From NCBI RefSeq assembly GCF_023336935.1, contig NZ_JAMBLR010000001.1:186001-250000 (forward strand): a DNA stretch of 64,000 nucleotides, given 5' to 3'. Position 1 is the stretch's first letter; each line of letters begins with the position of its first letter. The notes under the pieces were generated by a model. That model was not told the DNA's origin. It saw only the letters and a list, made by a program, of their open reading frames with translations, and ran no database searches. The DNA comes from Phascolarctobacterium sp. ET69. GTDB taxonomy: Bacteria; Bacillota; Negativicutes; Acidaminococcales; Acidaminococcaceae. Shown one piece after another: positions 35,780-46,961 of the stretch. The translations under genes and the position numbers were made by a program.

Positions 35780-36658
35780 ATGAAAGGTATAATTTTAGCA
35801 GGTGGCAGCGGCACACGTCTTTATCCGCTTACTATGGTTACAAGTAAACAATTATTACCAATATATAACAAACCGATGATTTACTATCCGTTATCTACGC
35901 TTATGCTTGCAGGTATTAGGGAGATTTTAATAATTTCTACGCCGCATGATTTACCAAATTTTGAAAAATTGTTAGGTACAGGCGAGAGATACGGGCTTAA
36001 ATTAAGTTATAAAGTACAGCCTTCACCAGATGGTTTGGCACAAGCCTTTATTTTGGGCGAAGAATTTGTAGGCAATGATAGCTGTGCTTTAATTTTAGGT
36101 GATAATATTTTTTACGGTGCAGGTTTAAGCAAACATTTAAAACAAGCAGCTGCTAATAAAACCGGTGCAACGGTATTTGGTTATTATGTAGATGACCCGG
36201 AGCGATTTGGCGTTGTTGAATTTGATGCTGACGGTAAAGCAGTATCTATCGAAGAAAAACCTGCGCAGCCTAAAAGTAACTATGCAGTAACCGGCTTGTA
36301 TTTTTACGATAACAATGTTTGCAAATATGCCAAAACACTTAAGCCATCCGCCCGCGGCGAATTGGAAATTACTGATTTAAACAAAATTTATCTGCAAAAC
36401 GACAAGTTAAACGTAATTACCTTGGGTCGCGGTTATGCCTGGCTTGATACTGGCACGGTTGATAGCTTAAATGAAGCGGCAGAATTTGTAAAAGCTGTTG
36501 AAACAAGAACCGGTATACCCATTGCTGTGCTTGAAGAAATTGCCTACAACAACGGCTGGATAACAAAAGAGCAGCTTTTAGAAAGCGCTGAAAAATATGG
36601 AAAAGCTCCTTATGGACAATACTTAAAAAAGGTAGCAGAAGGCAAAATAAAATATTAA
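35780..36658 (+). CDS. rmlA: Glucose-1-phosphate thymidylyltransferase
   Basis: First step of dTDP-sugar synthesis: glucose-1-phosphate plus dTTP gives dTDP-glucose. The 292 residues begin [18 protein letters not shown], with [20 protein letters not shown] near 25, [12 protein letters not shown] near 107 and [15 protein letters not shown] near 215. I chose the ATG at 35780 after GGGAGG; the longer frame from 35723 runs into the preceding gene. Base composition is closer to the housekeeping genes than to its AT-rich upstream neighbours. Confidence 0.97.
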
Positions 36659-36672
36659 GAAGGTAACATAAA

Positions 36673-37218
36673 ATGAAAATAGCTAAAACAAAACTTGAAG
36701 GTGTGGTAATAATAGAACCTGAAGTATTTGGCGACAACCGCGGCTTTTTTATGGAAAGCTGGAACAAAAAGAAAATGGCTGAAGCAGGTTTAGATTATGA
36801 TTTTGTGCAGGATAATCATTCTAAAAGCACGGTAAAAGGTACGTTGCGTGGTATTCACTTTCAAAAAGGCGATAAAGCACAGGCAAAACTGGTACGCTGC
36901 GTAAAAGGAGCTGTGCTTGATGTTGCGGTAGATTTGCGTAAAAACAGCCCAACATTTAAACAATGGGTTGGTGTAGAACTTAGTGAAGAAAATAAAAAGC
37001 AACTTTTGATTCCGCGTGGTTTTGGGCATGGATTTGTAACATTAACTGACGATGTAGAATTTTTGTACAAAGCGGATAACTATTATGCACCGGAAGCTGA
37101 TGCCGGAATACGCTGGAACGACCCGGACATAGGTGTAGAGTGGGGTATAGAAAATCCGATTTTATCTGAAAAAGATAAAAAGAATCCATTTTTGAAAGAT
37201 TGTAGAGAATTGTTTTAG
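36673..37218 (+). CDS. rmlC: dTDP-4-dehydrorhamnose 3,5-epimerase
   Basis: Cupin enzyme of the dTDP-L-rhamnose pathway. The 181 residues include GDNRGFFMESWN near 18, the catalytic region DNHSKSTVKGTLRGIHFQ near 45 (His in RGIHF), VLDVAVDLRKNSP near 80 and PRGFGHGFVTLTDDVEFLYK near 115. It follows rmlA by 14 bases with GAAGG as ribosome-binding site. A 68-base gap without obvious content separates it from rmlD. Confidence 0.97.
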   Translation: MKIAKTKLEGVVIIEPEVFGDNRGFFMESWNKKKMAEAGLDYDFVQDNHSKSTVKGTLRGIHFQKGDKAQAKLVRCVKGAVLDVAVDLRKNSPTFKQWVGVELSEENKKQLLIPRGFGHGFVTLTDDVEFLYKADNYYAPEADAGIRWNDPDIGVEWGIENPILSEKDKKNPFLKDCRELF

Positions 37219-37286
37219 CAGTAAATAGACCCACGGTTTAGAAGGCCGTTGCTCTAGCTCAAGTTTATTATATAGGTGATTTGATA

Positions 37287-38123
37287 GTGAAAGTTTTAGT
37301 AACTGGTGCTAATGGTCAGCTTGGCTACGATGTTGTAAAAGAATTGCAAAAACAAAATATAGAATGTTACGGTGCAGTGCGTAAAGATTTTGATATTGTT
37401 GATTTTGAAGCTACGGAAAAATTTATTACAAATTATAAGCCGGACGTTGTGATTCATTGTGCAGCATATACCTCTGTTGATAAAGCAGAAGACGAACAAG
37501 GATTATGCTATTTAGTTAATGCTTCTGCAACAGAAAATATTGCTGGAATTTGCAAAAAAATAAATGCCAAAATGCTTTATATCAGTACGGACTATGTTTT
37601 TGACGGAACAAAAAACGGTTTTTATGAAGTCGATGATAAACCGAACCCGATAAATGTTTACGGTAAAACAAAACTGCTTGGAGAGCAGGCAGTACAAAAA
37701 ATATTAGATAAATATTTTATTGTGCGTATATCCTGGGTATTTGGTGAGCATGGCAATAATTTTGTAAAAACAATGCTGCGTTTAGGCAAAGAACGTAAAG
37801 AAATAAATGTAGTTGCCGACCAATATGGCAGCCCAACATATACAGCAGATTTAGCGCCGTTATTGGTGGAGATGATACAAACAGATAAATACGGCATTTA
37901 TTATGCAACAAACAAAGGTGTATGTACATGGGCAGAATTTGCCGAAGAAATTTTTAAAATTGTTGGTATGGATGTTAAAGTGAACCATATAACGACTGCT
38001 GAATATCCAACAAGAGCCCAAAGACCGATGAATAGTAGGTTGAGTAAGAAAAGTTTGCAAATAAATAATTTTAAATATTTAAAATTATGGAATGACGCAT
38101 TGAGACAATTTTTAAATAGGTAA
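37287..38123 (+). CDS. rmlD: dTDP-4-dehydrorhamnose reductase
   Basis: NAD(P)H-dependent last step to dTDP-L-rhamnose. The 278-residue extended SDR protein has the cofactor motif VTGANGQLGYDVV near residue 5, HCAAYTSVDKAE near 60, YISTDYVFDG near 98 and the catalytic YGKTKLLGE near 125 (Tyr-x3-Lys). I prefer the GTG at 37287, six bases after AGGTGAT, over an in-frame TTG at 37281. The gene is moderately AT-rich. Confidence 0.95.
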   Translation: MKVLVTGANGQLGYDVVKELQKQNIECYGAVRKDFDIVDFEATEKFITNYKPDVVIHCAAYTSVDKAEDEQGLCYLVNASATENIAGICKKINAKMLYISTDYVFDGTKNGFYEVDDKPNPINVYGKTKLLGEQAVQKILDKYFIVRISWVFGEHGNNFVKTMLRLGKERKEINVVADQYGSPTYTADLAPLLVEMIQTDKYGIYYATNKGVCTWAEFAEEIFKIVGMDVKVNHITTAEYPTRAQRPMNSRLSKKSLQINNFKYLKLWNDALRQFLNR

Positions 38124-38128
38124 TTTAC

Positions 38129-39100
38129 ATGAAAAATAAATATGATGTATCAATTATTGTCGCGACATATAATCCGGATTTAAATAAGTTAATGAGTACA
38201 TTGTTATCAATAATAATACAAAAAGGTATTAAGTTTGAAATAATAGTTACCGACGATGGATCTCAAAAGGATTATTTTAAAGAAGTTATAGTATTTTTTG
38301 AAAGAAATAATTTTAAAAATTATAAACTTATAAAAAATGAGATTAATATTGGTACAGTTAATAATTTTTATAATGCTTTAATTATAAGCAAAGGAAAATA
38401 TGTATTTGGTATTTCACCAGGCGACATGATATATGATGAAAATAGTTTATTTTCTATATTTGATTTTGCGGAGAAAAATAAAGTCAAAGTTTGTTTTGGA
38501 GATGCTGTATATTATTCTAATTTTAATAATCATTTAAAAATATATGAAGAAGTTAATAATGCGCCTTTAAAAAGTGCAATTTATGATGATGATATTCCAT
38601 TTAATACGCAAAAAATAGGATTTTTATGGGGAAATTATATTTTGGGTGTTTCTTTTTTTAGAAATAGAGAACTTGCTATTAAATATATTGGCAAAATAAA
38701 AGATTATTGTAGGTATGTTGAAGATAACACTTCAACTGCGTTTATTTTGGCGGATAATATAAGAATTCATCATTTAAAAAAACATATAGTTTGGTATGAA
38801 TATGGAACCGGTGTATCTACGAGCAAAAGTGAAAAATGGAGTAAGTTATTAGAACAAGATTTTAATAATTGTTATGAGAAATTGTATAATTCATACATTA
38901 AAGATAATATTATTAGCGCTTTTTATCATACGAGTAAAATGAATAAAAAGTTGTCAAAAACTATATGTATGGTGTTAAATCATCCAATGATTTTATTTAC
39001 AATTTTAAAGATAAGGCTAATGCCAAAATCCATAGGTTTGCAACATCCAATTAATAAAAAAATTTTAGAAAATTACTTAAAAATGGGAAGTGAGTATTAA
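38129..39100 (+). CDS. GT2 glycosyltransferase
   Basis: 323-residue GT-A family 2 enzyme: VSIIVATYNPDLNKLMSTL at the start, IIVTDDGSQKDYF near 38, SKGKYVFGISPGDMIYDE near 88 as the metal-binding region. The C-terminal third (after residue ~240) is lysine-rich and not recognisable. It begins five bases after rmlD, and its stop shares a base with the start of the fdtA-like gene. Very AT-rich; donor and acceptor unknown. Confidence 0.82.
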   Translation: MKNKYDVSIIVATYNPDLNKLMSTLLSIIIQKGIKFEIIVTDDGSQKDYFKEVIVFFERNNFKNYKLIKNEINIGTVNNFYNALIISKGKYVFGISPGDMIYDENSLFSIFDFAEKNKVKVCFGDAVYYSNFNNHLKIYEEVNNAPLKSAIYDDDIPFNTQKIGFLWGNYILGVSFFRNRELAIKYIGKIKDYCRYVEDNTSTAFILADNIRIHHLKKHIVWYEYGTGVSTSKSEKWSKLLEQDFNNCYEKLYNSYIKDNIISAFYHTSKMNKKLSKTICMVLNHPMILFTILKIRLMPKSIGLQHPINKKILENYLKMGSEY

Positions 39101-39510
39101 TGCAGGTAATTAAATATGTTTTTCAGCCACATGGTGATGAACGAGGGCAACTTGTGGCATTAGAGGAGTTTAAAGATATACCTTTTAAAATTAAGCGTGT
39201 TTATTATATGTATGATACCGCTAAAGGCGTAGTGCGTGGTCATCATGCACATAAATCTTTAGAACAAATTTTAGTTTGCATACATGGAAGCTGCAAAATA
39301 CTTTTAGATAATGGACAAGAAAAGAAAATTATACCTTTAGAAAAGCCTTATGAAGGACTGTATGTAGCTAATAATATGTGGCGTGAAATGTATGATTTTT
39401 CTACTGATGCTGTTTTAATGGTTTTGGCGTCCGAGTTATATGACGAAAATGATTATATAAGAAACTATGATGACTTTTTAAATTTTCTTAAGGTAAATAA
39501 AGGAGAATAA
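39100..39510 (+). CDS. fdtA: FdtA/QdtA-like dTDP-4-oxo-6-deoxyglucose 3,4-ketoisomerase
   Basis: 136-residue cupin of the WxcM/FdtA family, which moves the keto group of dTDP-4-oxo-6-deoxyglucose from C4 to C3. Seen: [16 protein letters not shown] near residue 8, [16 protein letters not shown] near 45 (the active-site histidines) and [19 protein letters not shown] near 85. The product is dTDP-3-oxo-6-deoxygalactose (FdtA) or -glucose (QdtA); the sequence alone does not decide. It overlaps the preceding gene by one base, and the matching aminotransferase starts three bases later. Confidence 0.88.
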
Positions 39511-39512
39511 CA

Positions 39513-40612
39513 ATGAAAGTACTATTTGCAACTTTTTTGCCAATGCATAATGAAATTAGACAGGAATTAGATTCTGCATATAACCGCGTTTTGGATAAAA
39601 GTTATTTTATACAGGGGGATGAATGTAGAAAATTTGAAGAAGAATTTGCTGAATACTGTGGAGTAAAGTATTGCGTTGGTGTAGCGACTGGATTAGATGC
39701 ACTATTTTTAATCTTAAAAGCTATGAATATAGGTAATGGTGATGAAGTTATAGTACCGTCAAATACTTACATTGCTACTGCATTAGCAGTTTCATATACT
39801 GGAGCAAAACCTATATTTGTAGAACCTGAAATAGAAACGTTTAATATAAATCCAAGTAGAATAGAAGAAAAAATAACATCTAACACCAAAGCAATTATAA
39901 CGGTACATTTGCAAGGGCGGACTGCGAATATGGAAGCAATTAATGTTATCGCTAAAAAGCATAATTTAAAAGTTATAGAAGACGCAGCACAAGCTCATGG
40001 AGCAAAATACAAAGGTAAAAAAGCTGGTTCTTTAGGTGACGCTGCCGGATTTAGTTTTTATCCCGGTAAAAATTTAGGAGCGCTTGGAGACGGCGGTTGT
40101 GTGACTACTAATGATAAAGCATTGGCTGATAAAGTCAGAGCTTTAGGAAATTATGGCTCTGATTATAAATATCATCATATTTATAAAGGAGTTAACAGCA
40201 GATTAGATGAAATTCAGGCAGCATTTTTAAGAGTAAAATTACCTAATCTGGATAGATGGAATGAAGACAGGCGTGCAACAGCTAAAAAGTATTTTGAGGG
40301 TATAAAAATCCTTTAATAAAACTTCCTCTAAAATCTACTGATGAATTTGAGCATATTTATCATGTTTTTGTTATCCGTTGTGATAAACGTGATGAATTAG
40401 AAAAATATTTAAATGATAATGGGATTGGGACGCTGAAACATTATCCTATACCTATGCATGAACAGGAATGTTATAAAGATTTAGGAATTAAACATGGCGA
40501 ATTGCCAATTGCTGAGGAAATTAGTAGAACAGTTTTAAGTATACCAATGTATTATGGTATGACAGATGAAGAGATTAACTATGTTATTGAAGTAATAAAT
40601 AAATTTAATTAA
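39513..40612 (+). pseudogene. fdtB: FdtB/QdtB-like sugar aminotransferase, frameshifted
   Basis: PLP-dependent DegT/DnrJ/EryC1 aminotransferase that would convert the 3-keto sugar made by the fdtA product to dTDP-3-amino-3,6-dideoxyhexose. The first frame (39513-40316) holds [50 protein letters not shown] and the lysine motif [16 protein letters not shown]. It stops at 40316, but homology continues in the next frame from 40309 to 40612 (LPLKSTDEFEHIYHVFVIR...LSIPMYYGMTDEEI). Adding one A to the A5 run at 40304-40308 restores about 366 residues, the family's normal size. This is either an inactivating mutation, slippage, or a sequencing error; the truncated form would lack the C-terminal substrate-binding part. 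Confidence 0.85.
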
Positions 40613-40626
40613 TTATAATATTAACT

Positions 40627-41704
40627 ATGCAGGCATTAACTTATAACAAACGAGAAACTAATATTGAATTATTACGTATATTATGTATTTGTGGCGTAAT
40701 TTTATTACATTACTGCAATATTGAAATTGGAAAGGGTTTACTTTATGTGGATACAGATAGTTTAAACTATTATTGTATGCACTTTATTATTAGTTTAGCT
40801 ATTTGTGCTGTAAATCTTTTTATTTTAATAAGTGGGTATTTTATGGTGAACAATGAGAAACGTTCATTAATGAAACCATTAAAATTAATAGTTCAGGTTA
40901 TATTAGTACAATTATTTTTATACTTAGCGAATGTTTTTTTTGTTTGAGAAAACATTCGCTATTAAAGCAATATTACGAGCATTAATTCCGGCTAATTATT
41001 TTGTAATATTATATATTGCAGTGTATATAACTTCTCCATATATTAATAAATTAATGGCAATGTTGTCATTAAAACAAAATAAACGCTTTATTTTAATAAT
41101 ATTTTTAATTTTTTCGGTATGGCCAACTATTGTAGATTTAATAGAAGAAGCTGTTGGACATAAATTAATGGGGTTAAGTAGTATAGGTATGTATGGCAGT
41201 CAATATGGGTATAGTTATATAAATTTTTTATTAATGTATTGTATTGGTGCATTTTTAAAGAGATATGATTTTAGTAGTATAGATAATAAACGTTTATATG
41301 TGTCTTTTGTTTTAAATAATTTATTGATAAATATTTGGTCACAAATAAATATTACTACGGCATGGGAATACTGTAATCCATTAATAGTATTAGAAACTAT
41401 TTTAGTATTTTTAATATTTAACAAAATAAAACTACAAAATGAAAAAATAAATTTTTTAGCAAAAAGTGTATTTTCTGTTTTTCTACTTCATTTTAGTTTT
41501 ATTAATAAATTAAATATTTCTTATTTTGTTAACAGTAATTTAGCCGTAATGATATTACATATGATGTTTTCGTGTATTGGTATATATTTAGTGTGTTTTA
41601 TATTTGATATTTTCTACAAAAAATTTGAAAATTTTATTTTTAAATTAAAGATTTGTAGATGTAGTTTTCTATCAGAAAATTTTACTTTATTACAAGATAA
41701 ATAA
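40627..41704 (+). pseudogene. Membrane acyltransferase (family 3), frameshifted
   Basis: Integral membrane acyltransferase of the OafA/WecH-like family, which transfers acetyl or other acyl groups to surface glycans. The first part (40627-40947) has RETNIELLRILCICGVILLHY (key part NIELLRILC, HY) and FILISGYFM near residue 60. It stops after NVFFV; the second frame (from about 40934 to 41704) continues with FEKTFAIKAILRALIPANYF and YITSPYINKLM, then further helices. Removing one T from the T8 run at 40934-40941 joins both to 358 residues, the usual size. A perfect 12-bp inverted repeat flanks the break. Very AT-rich. Confidence 0.82.
40926..40960. repeat. Perfect 12-bp inverted repeat around the acyltransferase frameshift
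   Basis: AGCGAATGTTTT (40926-40937) and AAAACATTCGCT (40949-40960) are exact reverse complements with an 11-base loop. The T8 run and the premature TGA lie inside it. Confidence 0.95.
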
Positions 41705-41708
41705 TATA

Positions 41709-43121
41709 ATGAGCAAATTTAAACTTTTTATTGAAAATTTTTTAGTATATGGATTAGGTGGCATATTAAACAGAATAGTACCGTTTTTAATGTTGCCTAT
41801 TATAACAAGATTAATGCCAAATACAAAGTATTTTGGCTTAAATGATTTATCTAATACAATAGTTCAATTCGGTACTGCTATAGCAATTATGGGAATGTAT
41901 GATGCAGTATTTAGGTTATTTTTTGATAAAGATGATTTTACTTATCAAAGGAAAATTTGTTCAACTGCGTTAATTTTTGTTTTTTGTATAGGTACTATAA
42001 TTTCTTTAATATTATATTTATTTGATTTACAGGTTACGTTATGGATTTTTGGAAGTGAAGAATATAAAATTCTTTTGCATTTAACGTGTATTAGTATATT
42101 TGTAGGAGCAACGAATAGTATTATTGCTTTACCAACCAGAGCACAAAATAAAAGAAAAATATTTATAAGCATTGGTTTGGTATCATCTATACTATCATAT
42201 TCAATTTCAGTTCCTTTGTTATTAATAGGTGAATTTTTAATAGCTTTACCTTTAGCTGGAATTATTACAGCTTTAATAACTGAAATTAGTTTTTATATAA
42301 TAAACAGAAAATGGTTTTCGTATAGATTATTTGATATTCAAATTTTACAAAATTTATTAAGAATAGCTTTGCCTTTGTTGCCGACATTTTTAATTTATTG
42401 GATTTTTACTTCAAGTGACCGTCTTATAATTGCAAAATTATTAAATAATGAAGCTGTTGGTTTATATGCGGTTGGTGCTAAAATTGCTAGTGCAAGTCAA
42501 CTGATTTATACAGCTTTTGCTGGTGGATGGCAATATTTTGCTTTTTCAACAATGCGTGAAGAAAATCAGGTGAAAAATAATTCTTTAGTTTTTGAATATT
42601 TAGGAATAATTTCTTTTATAAGCGGATTGTTTGCTTGCGCATGGAGTAAAAGTTTTTTTGAAATATTTTTTACTGGTGATTATGTAAATGGTTACATAGT
42701 AATGCCATATTTGTTTTTAGGACCATTACTTTTAATGCTTTATCAGGTATTAGGAAATCAGTTCTTAGTTATAAAAAAAACATGGCCTGGAATGCTTATT
42801 TTGTTATTTGGAGCTATTTTAAATTTATTACTTAATTTGTGTTTAATACCTGTGTTAGGTATTGAAGGAGCAGCTATAGCAACATTAATTGGTTACACAG
42901 TTTCAGTAATAATATGTGGTATTGTTTTAAGAAAAATGAGTTTGGTAGATATTGAACGGCGTTTTATATATTTATCATTATTAATGCTTTTCTTTATGTT
43001 TTTATGGAGAGTGTATTTTATAAATTATTTGTTGATAAGCACAATGATGGCAATAATATTTGCAATATGTTGCGCACTATTTTATAAAAGAGAAATTTAT
43101 ATTTTATTAAATAAAAAGTAG
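41709..43121 (+). CDS. wzx: Wzx-type polysaccharide flippase
   Basis: 470-residue membrane protein of the MOP exporter superfamily with about 12-14 hydrophobic segments. The N-terminal FLVYGLGGILNRIVPFLMLP is the typical Wzx/RfbX start, and IFTSSDRLIIAKLLNNEAVG near residue 228 is the conserved central loop. It would flip the undecaprenyl-linked repeat unit to the periplasmic face. No Wzy polymerase or Wzz chain-length regulator is found beside it. The start lacks a clear ribosome-binding site. Very AT-rich. Confidence 0.9.
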   Translation: MSKFKLFIENFLVYGLGGILNRIVPFLMLPIITRLMPNTKYFGLNDLSNTIVQFGTAIAIMGMYDAVFRLFFDKDDFTYQRKICSTALIFVFCIGTIISLILYLFDLQVTLWIFGSEEYKILLHLTCISIFVGATNSIIALPTRAQNKRKIFISIGLVSSILSYSISVPLLLIGEFLIALPLAGIITALITEISFYIINRKWFSYRLFDIQILQNLLRIALPLLPTFLIYWIFTSSDRLIIAKLLNNEAVGLYAVGAKIASASQLIYTAFAGGWQYFAFSTMREENQVKNNSLVFEYLGIISFISGLFACAWSKSFFEIFFTGDYVNGYIVMPYLFLGPLLLMLYQVLGNQFLVIKKTWPGMLILLFGAILNLLLNLCLIPVLGIEGAAIATLIGYTVSVIICGIVLRKMSLVDIERRFIYLSLLMLFFMFLWRVYFINYLLISTMMAIIFAICCALFYKREIYILLNKK

Positions 43122-43134
43122 AAAGGAAAATTTT

Positions 43135-43728
43135 ATGGCAAGAAATATTGTACTTGAAGGTAAATATGTACGTTTAGAAGAAATTTCTCCTAAATATTTT
43201 CAAAAAGTAGTTGAATGGCGTAATAATCCAGAAAATAATAAATTTTTAAACCAGCCTTTTAAATTAACAATTGATTTAGAGAAGCAATGGTATGAAAATA
43301 AATATCTTAATGATATGACACAGGGCTTGTTCATTATGGTTGATAAAAAAAATAATATACCGTTTGGAACCATTGGATGGACAGATTATGATAAAAATAA
43401 ACAATTATGCATATCTGGACGAGTATTAGTTGGAGAATATAAGTACAGAGGGAGAAAAGAATTTTTAGAAGCCACTTTATTGTACAATGATTATTTATAT
43501 TATGATTTAAATATAAAAATTATGTATGCGCATATCTTTTGCGAAAATAAAGATTCAATTTCTTGGTCAAAAAATTGGGGATTTAAACTAAATAATTCTT
43601 CTATTGAATTTCCCAAAGAACTTGTAGTGAACGGTAAGAGACAGAATGAATATATACGTACTTTAAAAGATTATGATTTAGTAAAAAATAAAATAAAAAA
43701 ATATTTTGATTTTAAAAAGGAGAAGTGA
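43135..43728 (+). CDS. GNAT-family N-acyltransferase
   Basis: 197-residue GNAT protein of the RimJ/RimL-like group: VLEGKYVRLEEISPKYFQKV at the start, EWRNNPENNKF near residue 30, IPFGTIGWTDYD near 78 and the acyl-donor site region SGRVLVGEYKYRGRKEFLEA near 98. In amino-sugar pathways GNAT enzymes such as WecD or PseH acetylate the amino group. Here the gene is followed immediately by an acyl carrier protein and a ligase, so the donor could be acyl-ACP rather than acetyl-CoA (inference). RBS AAAGGAAAA; the stop lies inside the next gene's ribosome-binding region. Confidence 0.82.
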   Translation: MARNIVLEGKYVRLEEISPKYFQKVVEWRNNPENNKFLNQPFKLTIDLEKQWYENKYLNDMTQGLFIMVDKKNNIPFGTIGWTDYDKNKQLCISGRVLVGEYKYRGRKEFLEATLLYNDYLYYDLNIKIMYAHIFCENKDSISWSKNWGFKLNNSSIEFPKELVVNGKRQNEYIRTLKDYDLVKNKIKKYFDFKKEK

Positions 43729-43733
43729 TAGTT

Positions 43734-43973
43734 ATGAAAAAAGAAGAAATTAAAATTGCTCTTTTAAATATGATAAATGAAATAAAATGCGAGAAGGGTG
43801 ATGATAAAATTAAAGATTTAGATGATTCATTATTATTACGCAATGATCTTAATTTAGATTCTTTTGATTTAGCAATATTAACAGCGAAAATAGAAGATAA
43901 ATATAATATTGATGTTTTTGAAGATAGAATTGTTAAAACTGTTGGTGAAATTATTATTAAGTTGGAGAAATAG
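43734..43973 (+). CDS. Acyl carrier protein-like protein
   Basis: 79-residue acidic helical protein of the ACP/PCP family. The phosphopantetheine attachment serine is in LNLDSFDLAILTAKIED near residue 43, matching the DSxxL motif, followed by the typical helix III. The size equals DltC and fatty-acid ACPs, but context (between a GNAT enzyme and a ligase in a polysaccharide cluster) says it is a dedicated carrier. I chose the ATG at 43734, behind AAAAGGAG; a GTG at 43725 abuts that site. A 4'-phosphopantetheinyl transferase is not in the window. Confidence 0.85.
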   Translation: MKKEEIKIALLNMINEIKCEKGDDKIKDLDDSLLLRNDLNLDSFDLAILTAKIEDKYNIDVFEDRIVKTVGEIIIKLEK

Positions 43974-43975
43974 TT

Positions 43976-45208
43976 ATGAATTTTTTCATAGATGAAGCAA
44001 ATAAAATAAAAATAAGTTATAACGATTTAGTTGCAAGAATGAATTCCAAGAAAGAAATTAAGAAGTATATATATTCTTCTAATATAGAAGATGTTGTAAC
44101 TAATTTTGTTGCTTCATTATATTATGGATATGATGTAGTTTTATTGGATGGTGATTTTAGTTCAAAAGAGCTGACTCTTTTAAATGTTACTGAAGAAGAT
44201 TTAAAATCAAAAGAACTTTTAAAAAATGATAAAAAGATTAAAAGTATTGATGAAGTAATAGAGAAAATAAAAGATAATATCAATGCTGTGCAGATAGCAA
44301 TTTATACATCAGGTACTACTGGGGCACCTAAAAAATTTATACATCCATTATCTCTGCTTATGCGTAATATAAAAATATCCGAGAAACATAGTAGTGATAT
44401 ATGGGGATTTGCTTATAATATAACGCATTTTGCAGGAGTCCAAGTTTTTTTACAAGCATTGATGAATAAGAATCCTATTATCAATTTATTTAATAAAAAT
44501 TTTGATAATGCTGATATGCTGTTAAAAAAATATAAATGTACCTGTATTTCTGCTACTCCAACATTTTATAGAAATTTTATATTTGTGCATAATGAAGAAA
44601 ATGTAAATATAAAATATGCAACATTTGGTGGGGAGAAATTTGACAATGCATTAATAATTAAGGCTAAAAATAAATTCCCTAATGCAAAAATCAGAAATAT
44701 CTATGCTTCTACCGAAGTCGGTAGCTTATTATCGGGTCTAAACGATTCTTTTAAAATACCGGAAAAGTTAAAAAGTCTTATAAAAATATCTTCTGAAAAC
44801 CATTTATTGATACATAGTTCATTGTTAGAAAAAAACAAAATTATTGATGATTGGTATGATACTAATGATATTGTAGCAATGAATGAGGATGGGACTTTTA
44901 AAATATTAAGCAGGGATAGTGATTTTATAAATGTTGGTGGATATAAAGTTAACCCGGAAGAAGTAGAAAGTTGTATTTTGCAAATTAATGGAGTTTTAGA
45001 TGTAGCGGTTATAGGAAGGGCAAATAGTGTATTAGGTAATATTTTAATTGCAAATATTAGAAAAGATGAAAAATATGCTGATACTGAATTAAAAAAGAAG
45101 ATACTTGACACATTAAAAAGTGAACTGCAATATTTTAAAATTCCTCGGATAATTAATTTTGTCAGTAATATTGAAAGAAATAGAAGTGGCAAGAAGGTGA
45201 GAAAATGA
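43976..45208 (+). CDS. Compact adenylate-forming acid:ACP ligase (ANL family)
   Basis: 410-residue AMP-forming enzyme that would activate a carboxylic or amino acid and load it on the neighbouring carrier protein. Core motifs are YTSGTTGAPKKF near residue 108 (phosphate loop), RNIYASTEVGSLLSG near 240, WYDTNDIVAMNEDG near 292, ILSRDSDFINVGGYKVNPEE near 310 (hinge), and the C-terminal RNRSGKKVRK with the adenylation lysine. It is about 100 residues shorter than usual, the loss being in the N-terminal subdomain before the phosphate loop. It starts two bases after the ACP and overlaps the reductase by four. Substrate unknown. Confidence 0.85.
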   Translation: MNFFIDEANKIKISYNDLVARMNSKKEIKKYIYSSNIEDVVTNFVASLYYGYDVVLLDGDFSSKELTLLNVTEEDLKSKELLKNDKKIKSIDEVIEKIKDNINAVQIAIYTSGTTGAPKKFIHPLSLLMRNIKISEKHSSDIWGFAYNITHFAGVQVFLQALMNKNPIINLFNKNFDNADMLLKKYKCTCISATPTFYRNFIFVHNEENVNIKYATFGGEKFDNALIIKAKNKFPNAKIRNIYASTEVGSLLSGLNDSFKIPEKLKSLIKISSENHLLIHSSLLEKNKIIDDWYDTNDIVAMNEDGTFKILSRDSDFINVGGYKVNPEEVESCILQINGVLDVAVIGRANSVLGNILIANIRKDEKYADTELKKKILDTLKSELQYFKIPRIINFVSNIERNRSGKKVRK

Positions 45209-45927
45209 AATGGATTATAGTTACAGGAGATAGCGGTGGGTTAGGTTCTGCTATTGTCAAAAATATATTAAATGATGGCAAGTATGGTGTCATTGGTATA
45301 AGCAGAAGCTTAAATGAAAATATAATGAATTTAATGAAAGATAATCAAAATTATGTACATATTAATTTTGATTTAGAAAATTCATTAGAAATAAGAGAAT
45401 TGTATAAAAATAAAATAAAAACATTAGGTGAAATTGTTGGATTAGTAAATAATTCAGCAATGGCATATGATGATATTATAACAAATGCCAATGTTAATAG
45501 AATTGAAAAAATGTTTAGTATTAATGTCTATTCTCCTATGATTTTAACTAAATATGTTATAAGAGATATGCTTCTTCATAATAATAAGGGTAGCATTGTT
45601 CACATTTCATCGGTTTCAGCCCATACAGGTTATAAAGGATTAAGTATGTATGCAGCTACTAAAGGGGCACTTGAAGCATTTTCAAAAAATGTAGCCAGAG
45701 AATGGGGGGTTAAGGGCATAAGGTCTAATTGTGTGGCTCCTGGATTTATGGAAACTACCATTAGTTCATCACTTACGAATGAACAAAGACAAAAAATTTA
45801 TCAACGTACTTCATTGAAAATGGCTACTGACATAGAAAGTGTTGCTTCAATGGTAGTATTTTTATTAAGTGAAGAAGCAAAGTCGATAACAGGTAGTATA
45901 ATAAACATTGATAGTGGAACAATATGA
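45205..45927 (+). CDS. FabG-like short-chain dehydrogenase/reductase
   Basis: 240-residue classical SDR with cofactor motif VTGDSGGLGSAIVK near residue 6, NNSAMAYDD near 78, catalytic Ser in HISSVSAHTG near 135 and Tyr-x3-Lys in YAATKGALEAF near 150, and the FabG-type VAPGFMETTI near 175. Overlap of four bases with the ligase gene (ATGA) means coupled translation. Best guess: it reduces a keto group on the ACP-bound acyl chain, or alternatively on a nucleotide sugar. AT-rich like the rest of the block, ending just before GC-richer rmlB. Confidence 0.85.
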   Translation: MKWIIVTGDSGGLGSAIVKNILNDGKYGVIGISRSLNENIMNLMKDNQNYVHINFDLENSLEIRELYKNKIKTLGEIVGLVNNSAMAYDDIITNANVNRIEKMFSINVYSPMILTKYVIRDMLLHNNKGSIVHISSVSAHTGYKGLSMYAATKGALEAFSKNVAREWGVKGIRSNCVAPGFMETTISSSLTNEQRQKIYQRTSLKMATDIESVASMVVFLLSEEAKSITGSIINIDSGTI

Positions 45928-45938
45928 GGATTTAAATA

Positions 45939-46961
45939 ATGAAACTCATCATTACCGGCGGAGCCGGGTTTATTGGAAGCAATTTTATATATTATCAGCT
46001 TAAGCATCATCCGGAAGATGAATTTGTTTGCTTGGATAAGCTGACGTATGCAGGTAATTTAAGCAGTTTAAAAGGTGTGATGGAGCAGCCAAACTTTAAG
46101 TTTGTGCGCGGCGATATTGCTGACCGTGATTTTGTTTGTAGCTTGTTTAAAAGAGAAAAGCCAGACATTATAGTAAACTTTGCGGCAGAAAGCCATGTTG
46201 ACCGCAGTATTTTAGAGCCGGAGTTGTTTTTAAAGACTAACGTTATTGGTACTGGCGTGCTGATGGATGCCTGCCGTAAGTACGGCATAAAGCGTTATCA
46301 TCAGGTAAGTACGGATGAAGTGTACGGCGATTTGCCTTTAGATAGGCCGGATTTGTTCTTTACGGAAACAACGCCGCTGCATACCTCAAGCCCGTATTCT
46401 GCATCTAAGGCAAGTGCTGATTTACTTGTTTTGGCATACCACAGAACGTATGGTTTGCCGGTAACGATTTCCCGTTGCAGCAATAACTATGGCCCATATC
46501 ACTTTCCGGAAAAATTAATTCCTTTAATGATTATCAATGCTCTGCACGACAAAGCTTTGCCTGTTTACGGAGATGGTGTTAACGTGCGCGACTGGTTATA
46601 TGTAGAAGACCATTGCAGTGCGATTGATTTAATCATCCGCGAGGGACATGAGGGTGAAGTTTACAACGTTGGCGGGCATAACGAAAAGAGTAATTTGGAT
46701 GTAGTAAAGATTATTTTAAAGGCACTTGGCAAAAGCGAAGATTTAATTACTTTTGTTAAAGACCGTCCTGGTCACGACAGGCGTTATGCCATCGACCCGA
46801 CCAAAATACACAATGAACTTGGCTGGCTGCCGCAAACGAAGTTTGTGAACGGCATAGCAAAAACCATTGAGTGGTATTTAGATAATAAAGACTGGTGGCA
46901 GGAAATCATCAGCGGAGAATACCAGAAGTATTACGAAAAAATGTATAAAAACAGAATATAA
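45939..46961 (+). CDS. rmlB: dTDP-glucose 4,6-dehydratase
   Basis: Converts dTDP-glucose to dTDP-4-keto-6-deoxyglucose, the branch point for rhamnose and the FdtA/FdtB amino sugar. The 340-residue extended SDR has ITGGAGFIGSNFIYY near residue 3, NFAAESHVDRSI near 80, HQVSTDEVYGDLP near 118 and YSASKASADLLVLAYHRTYG near 158 (Tyr-x3-Lys). It is separated from rmlACD by about 8 kb of AT-rich genes, while its own composition resembles rmlA. Confidence 0.97.
   Translation: MKLIITGGAGFIGSNFIYYQLKHHPEDEFVCLDKLTYAGNLSSLKGVMEQPNFKFVRGDIADRDFVCSLFKREKPDIIVNFAAESHVDRSILEPELFLKTNVIGTGVLMDACRKYGIKRYHQVSTDEVYGDLPLDRPDLFFTETTPLHTSSPYSASKASADLLVLAYHRTYGLPVTISRCSNNYGPYHFPEKLIPLMIINALHDKALPVYGDGVNVRDWLYVEDHCSAIDLIIREGHEGEVYNVGGHNEKSNLDVVKIILKALGKSEDLITFVKDRPGHDRRYAIDPTKIHNELGWLPQTKFVNGIAKTIEWYLDNKDWWQEIISGEYQKYYEKMYKNRI

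Follow-up and report, generated by a model that had tools for sequence, protein, structure and literature searches.

How might an amino sugar of a bacterial surface glycan be provided with an acyl group from a supply of its own? The question is raised by a stretch of 64,000 nucleotides from Phascolarctobacterium sp. ET69 (Negativicutes; contig NZ_JAMBLR010000001.1, positions 186,001 to 250,000), hereafter the window, in which the open reading frames (ORFs) for a GNAT acyltransferase, an acyl carrier protein (ACP), a compact AMP-forming ligase and a short-chain dehydrogenase/reductase (SDR) lie head to tail on the plus strand (43135-45927). The wzx gene is on one side of this cassette and rmlB on the other, and fdtA and fdtB are found upstream. 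The locus is probably an operon that N-acylates a nucleotide sugar and carries the cassette for supplying the acyl group, with a GNAT that acylates a dTDP-3-amino sugar from a ligase-loaded, SDR-reduced acyl-ACP. The ligase would use ATP to load a carboxylic acid onto the phosphopantetheine of the dedicated holo-ACP, and the SDR would reduce the bound acyl group, most simply from 3-keto to 3-hydroxy. The GNAT would then pass this group to the 3-amino group of a dTDP-3-amino-3,6-dideoxyhexose (Fuc3N or Qui3N) made by RmlA, RmlB, FdtA and FdtB, and the acylated sugar would join a surface glycan exported by Wzx. An initial annotation of this DNA had already proposed this sequence of ligase, reductase and GNAT. 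Comparison across genomes now speaks for it, while each enzymatic step, the acid, the dependence of the GNAT on ACP as donor, the sugar epimer and the expression of the genes are what we infer from sequence.

The strongest evidence for the mechanism is the linkage of the GNAT to fdtA/fdtB alongside varying supply genes, both observed directly. An FdtA search of the window's order was positive in 8 of 63 genomes, and one locus from another family of the class (L234) was added by a later search. Homologues of the window GNAT occur in L225 (60% identity), L226 (58%), L229 (56%), L231 (51%) and L234 (46%). All five, like the window copy, sit in fdtA/fdtB clusters, three with an ACP gene directly downstream; homologues consistently unlinked from 3-amino-sugar genes, which the initial annotation had named as counting against its proposal, were not what was found. 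The same linkage is seen in two Bacteroidota loci (L179 and L184), where a related GNAT and a ligase of the window's family share one cluster with fdtA and fdtB.

The window order is fdtA-fdtB-AT3-wzx-GNAT-ACP-LIG-SDR-rmlB (AT3, acyltransferase-3; LIG, ligase). In L225, of the same genus, it is fdtA-fdtB-hexapeptide-GT-GNAT-rmlB (GT, glycosyltransferase) without ACP; there rmlB, 91% identical to that of the window, directly abuts the GNAT gene where the window holds ACP-LIG-SDR, and rmlA is 77% identical to the window's. L229 has fdtA-fdtB-GNAT, again without ACP. L226 carries fdtA-fdtB-GNAT-ACP-SDR-KASIII, L234 carries fdtA-GNAT-ACP-SDR-KASIII-fdtB-AT3-wzx, and L231 carries fdtB-fdtA-...-GNAT-ACP-SDR-Antibiotic_NAT-ligase (508 aa)-...-ACP-KASIII. 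KASIII, present in these last three, is absent beside the window cassette by ORFs and Pfam. The supply genes next to the six GNATs are thus none (2), ACP-SDR-KASIII (2), a longer set (1) and ACP-ligase-SDR (window). Judged by sequence, these modules differ in kind and do not look like decayed versions of one, because identity to the window is low, at about 25-27% for the SDRs of L226, L231 and L234 and 25% for the ligase of L231. In this bacterial family the GNAT appears to be a regular part of a conserved fdtA/fdtB cluster, and the neighbouring acyl-supply genes are apparently exchanged among strains. The reduction from 3-keto to 3-hydroxy is proposed because an SDR also partners KASIII in the sister clusters; KASIII and SDR would there yield 3-hydroxyacyl-ACP, as proposed for VioS/VioR. 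Two further loci, L227 and L228, have fdtA-fdtB and a diverged GNAT without ACP. In another genome of the genus (L230:4409-7227), genes for FkbH, ACP and a fusion of a GNAT with a glyoxalase-like domain lie near fdtA/fdtB; given the chemistry of FkbH, this suggests a glyceryl-type group.

It could be argued that the GNAT alone acylates the 3-amino sugar, using acetyl-CoA or 3-hydroxybutyryl-CoA in the manner of FdhC, and that ACP-ligase-SDR is an independent module for another residue, perhaps one that adds O-acyl groups or serves a different amino sugar. The GNAT homologues of L225 and L229, with neither ACP nor ligase nearby, agree with this arrangement, as does the fact that FdhC/QdhC 3-hydroxybutanoyl transferases serve Fuc3N/Qui3N O-antigens (PMC4869667). 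We nevertheless consider it unlikely, given that ACP directly follows the GNAT in four of the six clusters with three different supply modules, that the GNAT-ACP-SDR-KASIII block of L234 is nested between fdtA and fdtB, and that related GNATs stand directly upstream of ACP in pseudaminic-acid clusters. The window locus resembles the FdhC/QdhC systems in the GNAT fold, the rmlA-fdtA-fdtB neighbourhood and the presumed N-acylation of the same position; it differs in that the known clusters have no described dedicated ACP, ligase or reductase, and the window GNAT is not clearly nearer to FdhC than to other GNATs. A profile built on the homologues together with the window GNAT matches FdhC (5KTA) at 7e-5, outranked by aminoglycoside and spermidine acetyltransferases, and searching the PDB with the window GNAT sequence alone gave weak matches throughout, FdhC not among them. 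The second glycine of the CoA-pyrophosphate loop is missing in the window GNAT and in several ACP-linked GNATs. This was considered as a sign of an ACP donor and rejected, since FdhC, reportedly crystallised with CoA, also lacks that glycine in the alignment. A search for a plasmid-borne relative of the window GNAT found none, and a Bacteroidota search with GNAT group A4 returned mostly general GNATs.

The supply genes themselves form a unit. Ligase relatives were sought in Pseudomonadota, Bacteroidota and Negativicutes (phylum labels being those of the named loci that served as search centres) and their neighbourhoods were then read. ACP, SDR and ligase were detected by models, and partners had to adjoin on the same strand; generic-ligase loci from a genome contig scan, matched through the SGTTG motif, served as controls. 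Of the 54 family loci, 45 have both ACP and SDR next to the ligase (34 of the 42 that were not used for model building), whereas none of the 80 generic-ligase loci does. ACP-ligase-SDR is therefore a real unit, and the window has it, with a family ligase and adjacent same-strand ACP and SDR genes in the order ACP-LIG-SDR. The ligase tree comprises two clades, one mostly ACP-LIG-SDR (support 0.87) and the other mostly ACP-SDR-LIG (support 1.0). The window ligase lies in the former and groups at support 1.0 with L173 (ligase 44% and SDR 61% identical to the window's) and L172 (35% and 58%). Around the L172 cassette (L172:7641-10582), a weakly WecD-like protein is encoded nearby and no glycan genes are visible. 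In the window's lineage the cassette is sporadic: searches of 62 further genomes from the order (E 1e-30) and of 397 further genomes sampled from the phylum (1e-25) found no relative of the ligase.

The initial annotation had tied the cassette to 3-amino sugars, and this restriction does not hold. Counting genes within the fetched stretch of each locus, a DegT sugar transaminase or PseI/NeuB-type synthase lies near the ligase in 23 of 44 family loci and in 0 of 52 controls, and most copies with a sugar context stand among pseudaminic-acid or bacillosamine-like genes. The gene order that it suggested looking for elsewhere, GNAT-ACP-LIG-SDR, does recur exactly in L110 and L111, in PseI clusters. 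L176 and L178 have GNAT-ACP-SDR-LIG, and the GNATs of L110, L111, L176, L177 and L178 pass the PseH cut-off. Hexapeptide transferases accompany the cassette in Bacteroidota L162-L170 and Antibiotic_NAT proteins in L109 and L173, while Azospirillum flagellin clusters hold ACP-ligase-SDR together with KASIII and pseI. Because several N-acyltransferase folds and sugar clusters accompany ACP-ligase-SDR, the cassette is, as far as sequence comparison can tell, a general acyl supplier for amino sugars and not a 3-amino-sugar device. A further recurrent pair beside ACP-ligase-SDR cassettes consists of Antibiotic_NAT (aminoglycoside 3-N-acetyltransferase-like) and an M28-like protein with DUF4910/DUF2172 (L173:6745-8892, L109:10971-13121, L167 and L176).

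A tie of the ligase family to fdtA/fdtB was also considered and dropped, since FdtA is present in only 7 of 40 ligase-bearing genomes and within about 8 kb of the ligase in 3; such linkage would seldom be expected by chance, in a test biased by the preference of both for glycan clusters. The linked loci are L177 (fdtA-fdtB near ACP-SDR-LIG-PseH and PseI), L184 (ligase, methyltransferase, GNAT, fdtA, fdtB) and L179. The ligases of L179 and L184 lie on other branches of the family than the window's, with GNATs related to the window's; FdhC is the best solved relative of the L179 GNAT. In the Bacteroidota locus L179 (L179:1197-11979), the assembly line that would build the acyl group of a 3-amino sugar is far longer, with two tandem fdtA genes, SDR, MBL-like, KASIII, a MaoC-SDR fusion, FkbH, ACP, ligase, GNAT and fdtB.

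The window GNAT has a GNAT domain by Pfam (PF13302, 33.6 bits; cut-off 25.4) and scores below the curated cut-off for PseH (TIGR03585, 30.8 against 93.1 bits). The SDR scores 156.4 bits against FabG (TIGR01830; curated cut-off 297.75) and probably works like an SDR reductase without being classed as FabG. The ACP reaches 25.4 bits to the best model of housekeeping AcpP, with a curated cut-off of about 66-70, and is a dedicated, divergent carrier and not housekeeping AcpP. Pfam and NCBIfam bear out the names given in the initial annotation, but no cassette protein reaches an equivalog cut-off in NCBIfam. The catalytic motifs are intact: DSFDL in the ACP, with DS at residues 41-42; YTSGTTGAPK (110), GGE (about 218), YASTE (243), D298, R313 and K406 in the ligase; and TGxxxGLG (7), NNSA (82), SS (135) and YAATK (149) in the SDR. 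The DSxxL serine of the ACP and the core motifs of the ligase had been reported correctly, as had the compactness of the latter, whose Pfam AMP-binding match begins at profile position 130 of 384.

The ligase also bears on the DltA/DltC-like aminoacylation that the initial annotation had offered as an alternative, in which the ligase puts an amino acid on the ACP, the GNAT moves it to the amino sugar, and the SDR works on a group derived from an amino acid or has its role elsewhere. There is weak, partial similarity to amino-acid adenylation domains (TIGR01733, 3e-21) and a weak match to a DltA structure in the PDB (2e-9), and the Fuc3N of Clostridium difficile type B flagellin bears a taurinyl-Ala-Gly group (PMC5207245). 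However, the ligase scores higher against acyl-CoA ligase families, the DltA model is absent among its 25 best NCBIfam matches, and the replacement of the ligase by KASIII beside ACP-SDR and a homologous GNAT points to ketoacyl/hydroxyacyl chemistry, which makes aminoacylation improbable here.

Gene content and order around the cassette, observed directly, are summarized in Table 1. The tight packing of the four genes was described correctly from the outset and is supported by ORFs, Pfam, motifs and intergenic spacings of -4 to +8 bases; rmlB begins 11 bases past the SDR gene. For the ACP, a GTG start at 43725 is less plausible than the ATG listed. The rmlA product also feeds the 3-amino sugar. 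GC content of 22-32% across 38.1-45.9 kb, against 43.4% for the whole window, suggests that this segment is acquired DNA. Clues to the epimer differ: the isomerase is nearest to 2PA7 (5.7e-44), the FdtA of A. thermoaerophilus, and the transaminase is nearest to QdtB (3FRK).

Table 1. Genes of the 3-amino-sugar region and the acyl-supply cassette, in window coordinates
Feature	Position	Strand	Evidence
rmlA, rmlC, rmlD, dTDP-6-deoxyhexose precursor genes	35780..38123	+	ORFs, family resemblance
fdtA-type dTDP-4-keto-6-deoxyglucose 3,4-ketoisomerase	39100..39510	+	Pfam FdtA PF05523 1.2e-51
fdtB/qdtB-type 3-aminotransferase, split	39513..40612	+	DegT 3e-94; QdtB 3FRK 1e-119
Acyltransferase-3 membrane protein gene, split	40627..41704	+	ORFs, Pfam
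Wzx-like flippase	41709..43121	+	Polysacc_synt_3 1.6e-15
GNAT, predicted sugar N-acyltransferase, 197 aa	43135..43728	+	Acetyltransf_3 7e-8
ACP, 78 aa, ATG start	43737..43973	+	PP-binding 0.002, slightly below curated cut-off
Compact AMP-forming ligase, 410 aa, predicted acid:ACP ligase	43976..45208	+	AMP-binding 5e-17, AMP-binding_C 6e-11
SDR reductase, FabG-like, 240 aa, predicted acyl-ACP reductase	45205..45927	+	adh_short_C2 3e-45
rmlB dTDP-glucose 4,6-dehydratase	45939..46961	+	TIGR01181 5e-149, above cut-off

The FdtA- and FdtB-like genes noted earlier upstream of the cassette are indeed present by Pfam and PDB matches, but splits in fdtB and in the neighbouring acyltransferase-3 gene had been overlooked. 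Five intact fdtB relatives align in frame 1 as far as about 40.30 kb and in frame 3 beyond, which places a frame change near 40.30-40.31 kb (40290-40320), in a short A run. Compared with the intact L234 gene, the acyltransferase-3 gene is likewise divided into two frames, at a T8 run near 40.94 kb (40930-40950). Sequencing error, phase variation or decay may each have produced these changes. Should it be decay, the 3-amino-sugar branch would be non-functional and the cassette a relic or in the service of another sugar. Two frame changes in adjacent genes, with fdtB intact in all five compared relatives of the order (L225, L226 and L229 included), fit such a history. It is very improbable all the same, as reading frames are open throughout the four-gene cassette, in fdtA and wzx and in the rml genes, and breaks at a T8 run and a short A run are also expected from sequencing error or reversible slippage.

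Several points weigh against N-acylation of a dTDP-3-amino sugar from acyl-ACP. With fdtB and acyltransferase-3 split in the assembly, this strain may not produce the sugar. The L225 and L229 GNATs, with no ACP gene close by, may draw on CoA thioesters, which means that the donor is not necessarily ACP; CoA donors or the housekeeping ACP could also supply such copies. Among characterised enzymes FdhC comes closest in role, and the clusters in which it works have no described dedicated ACP (PMC4869667). None of the evidence here points to the acid of the predicted ligase, family loci L113-L119 show no amino-sugar marker, and single-sequence structure models are of low quality (mean pLDDT 33 for the GNAT and 32 for the ligase).

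Acylation from a dedicated ACP has counterparts in known systems, and the "new pathway" of the initial annotation is in that respect not wholly new in kind, ACP-borne N-acyl groups for amino sugars being already known or proposed. In the viosamine island of Pseudomonas syringae (acp/vioS/vioR/vioB), ACP and reductase supply the 3-hydroxybutyryl group for a dTDP-amino sugar, and flagellin loses its modified viosamine when vioR, which encodes the 3-oxoacyl-ACP reductase, is deleted (PMC3927599). This island, and orfA-E of strain PAK, share with the window the dedicated ACP and 3-oxoacyl-ACP reductase; they differ in that KASIII starts the chain where the window uses a ligase, and in the 4-amino sugar (viosamine) in place of a 3-amino sugar. 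A closer match to the viosamine island than the window is provided by the sister clusters L226 and L234. In Flavobacterium psychrophilum, wfpC-wfpG likewise encode a dedicated ACP together with KAS, a reductase and an acyltransferase, and serve an amino sugar whose N-acyl group is not acetyl (PMC6519341); the differences are fatty-acid-like KAS synthesis, a PglD-type acyltransferase and UDP-Qui2NAc4N. The C. difficile type B flagellin Fuc3N locus also has an unusual N-acyl group and brings acyltransferase, ligase, dehydrogenase and FdtB together (PMC5207245), but no ACP is described and the group is a taurinyl-peptide. The same three gene types as in the window occur in glycan islands as Acp-CaiC-FabG (enterobacterial flagellin islands) and orf1-orf3 (Aeromonas group II) (PMC4875605, PMC7874193). 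These sets, compared by gene type and not by direct homology, are associated with pseudaminic acid or other sugars of flagellin. A literature search made mostly without subscription papers found no description of a cassette in which a ligase feeds ACP alongside fdtA/fdtB. What is new here is the ligase-fed form of acyl supply on a 3-amino sugar; the ACP-borne kind of N-acylation is known.

This comparison offers a role for ACP/AMP-ligase/FabG sets in glycan islands, so far described only as possible "liposugar" genes (PMC4875605, PMC7874193), as sources of the N-acyl groups, other than acetyl, that amino sugars receive. In Aeromonas AH-3, flagellin carries a 376.14-Da pseudaminic derivative, and the group II island has ACP, reductase and AMP synthetase (PMC7874193). 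By our arithmetic, a mono-N-acetyl-Pse residue (274.117) together with C4H6O3 (102.032), the addition expected of a dihydroxybutyryl group, would account for this mass. It is quite possible, although we lean slightly towards doubt, that Negativicutes keep the sugar GNAT and swap whole acyl-supply cassettes, diversifying the N-acyl group much as glycosyltransferases are exchanged, and that the ligase-fed cassette puts a free acid from the surroundings or from metabolism on the surface. N-acyl groups on surface sugars may thus vary by cassette exchange, and the cell surface could be re-decorated thereby.

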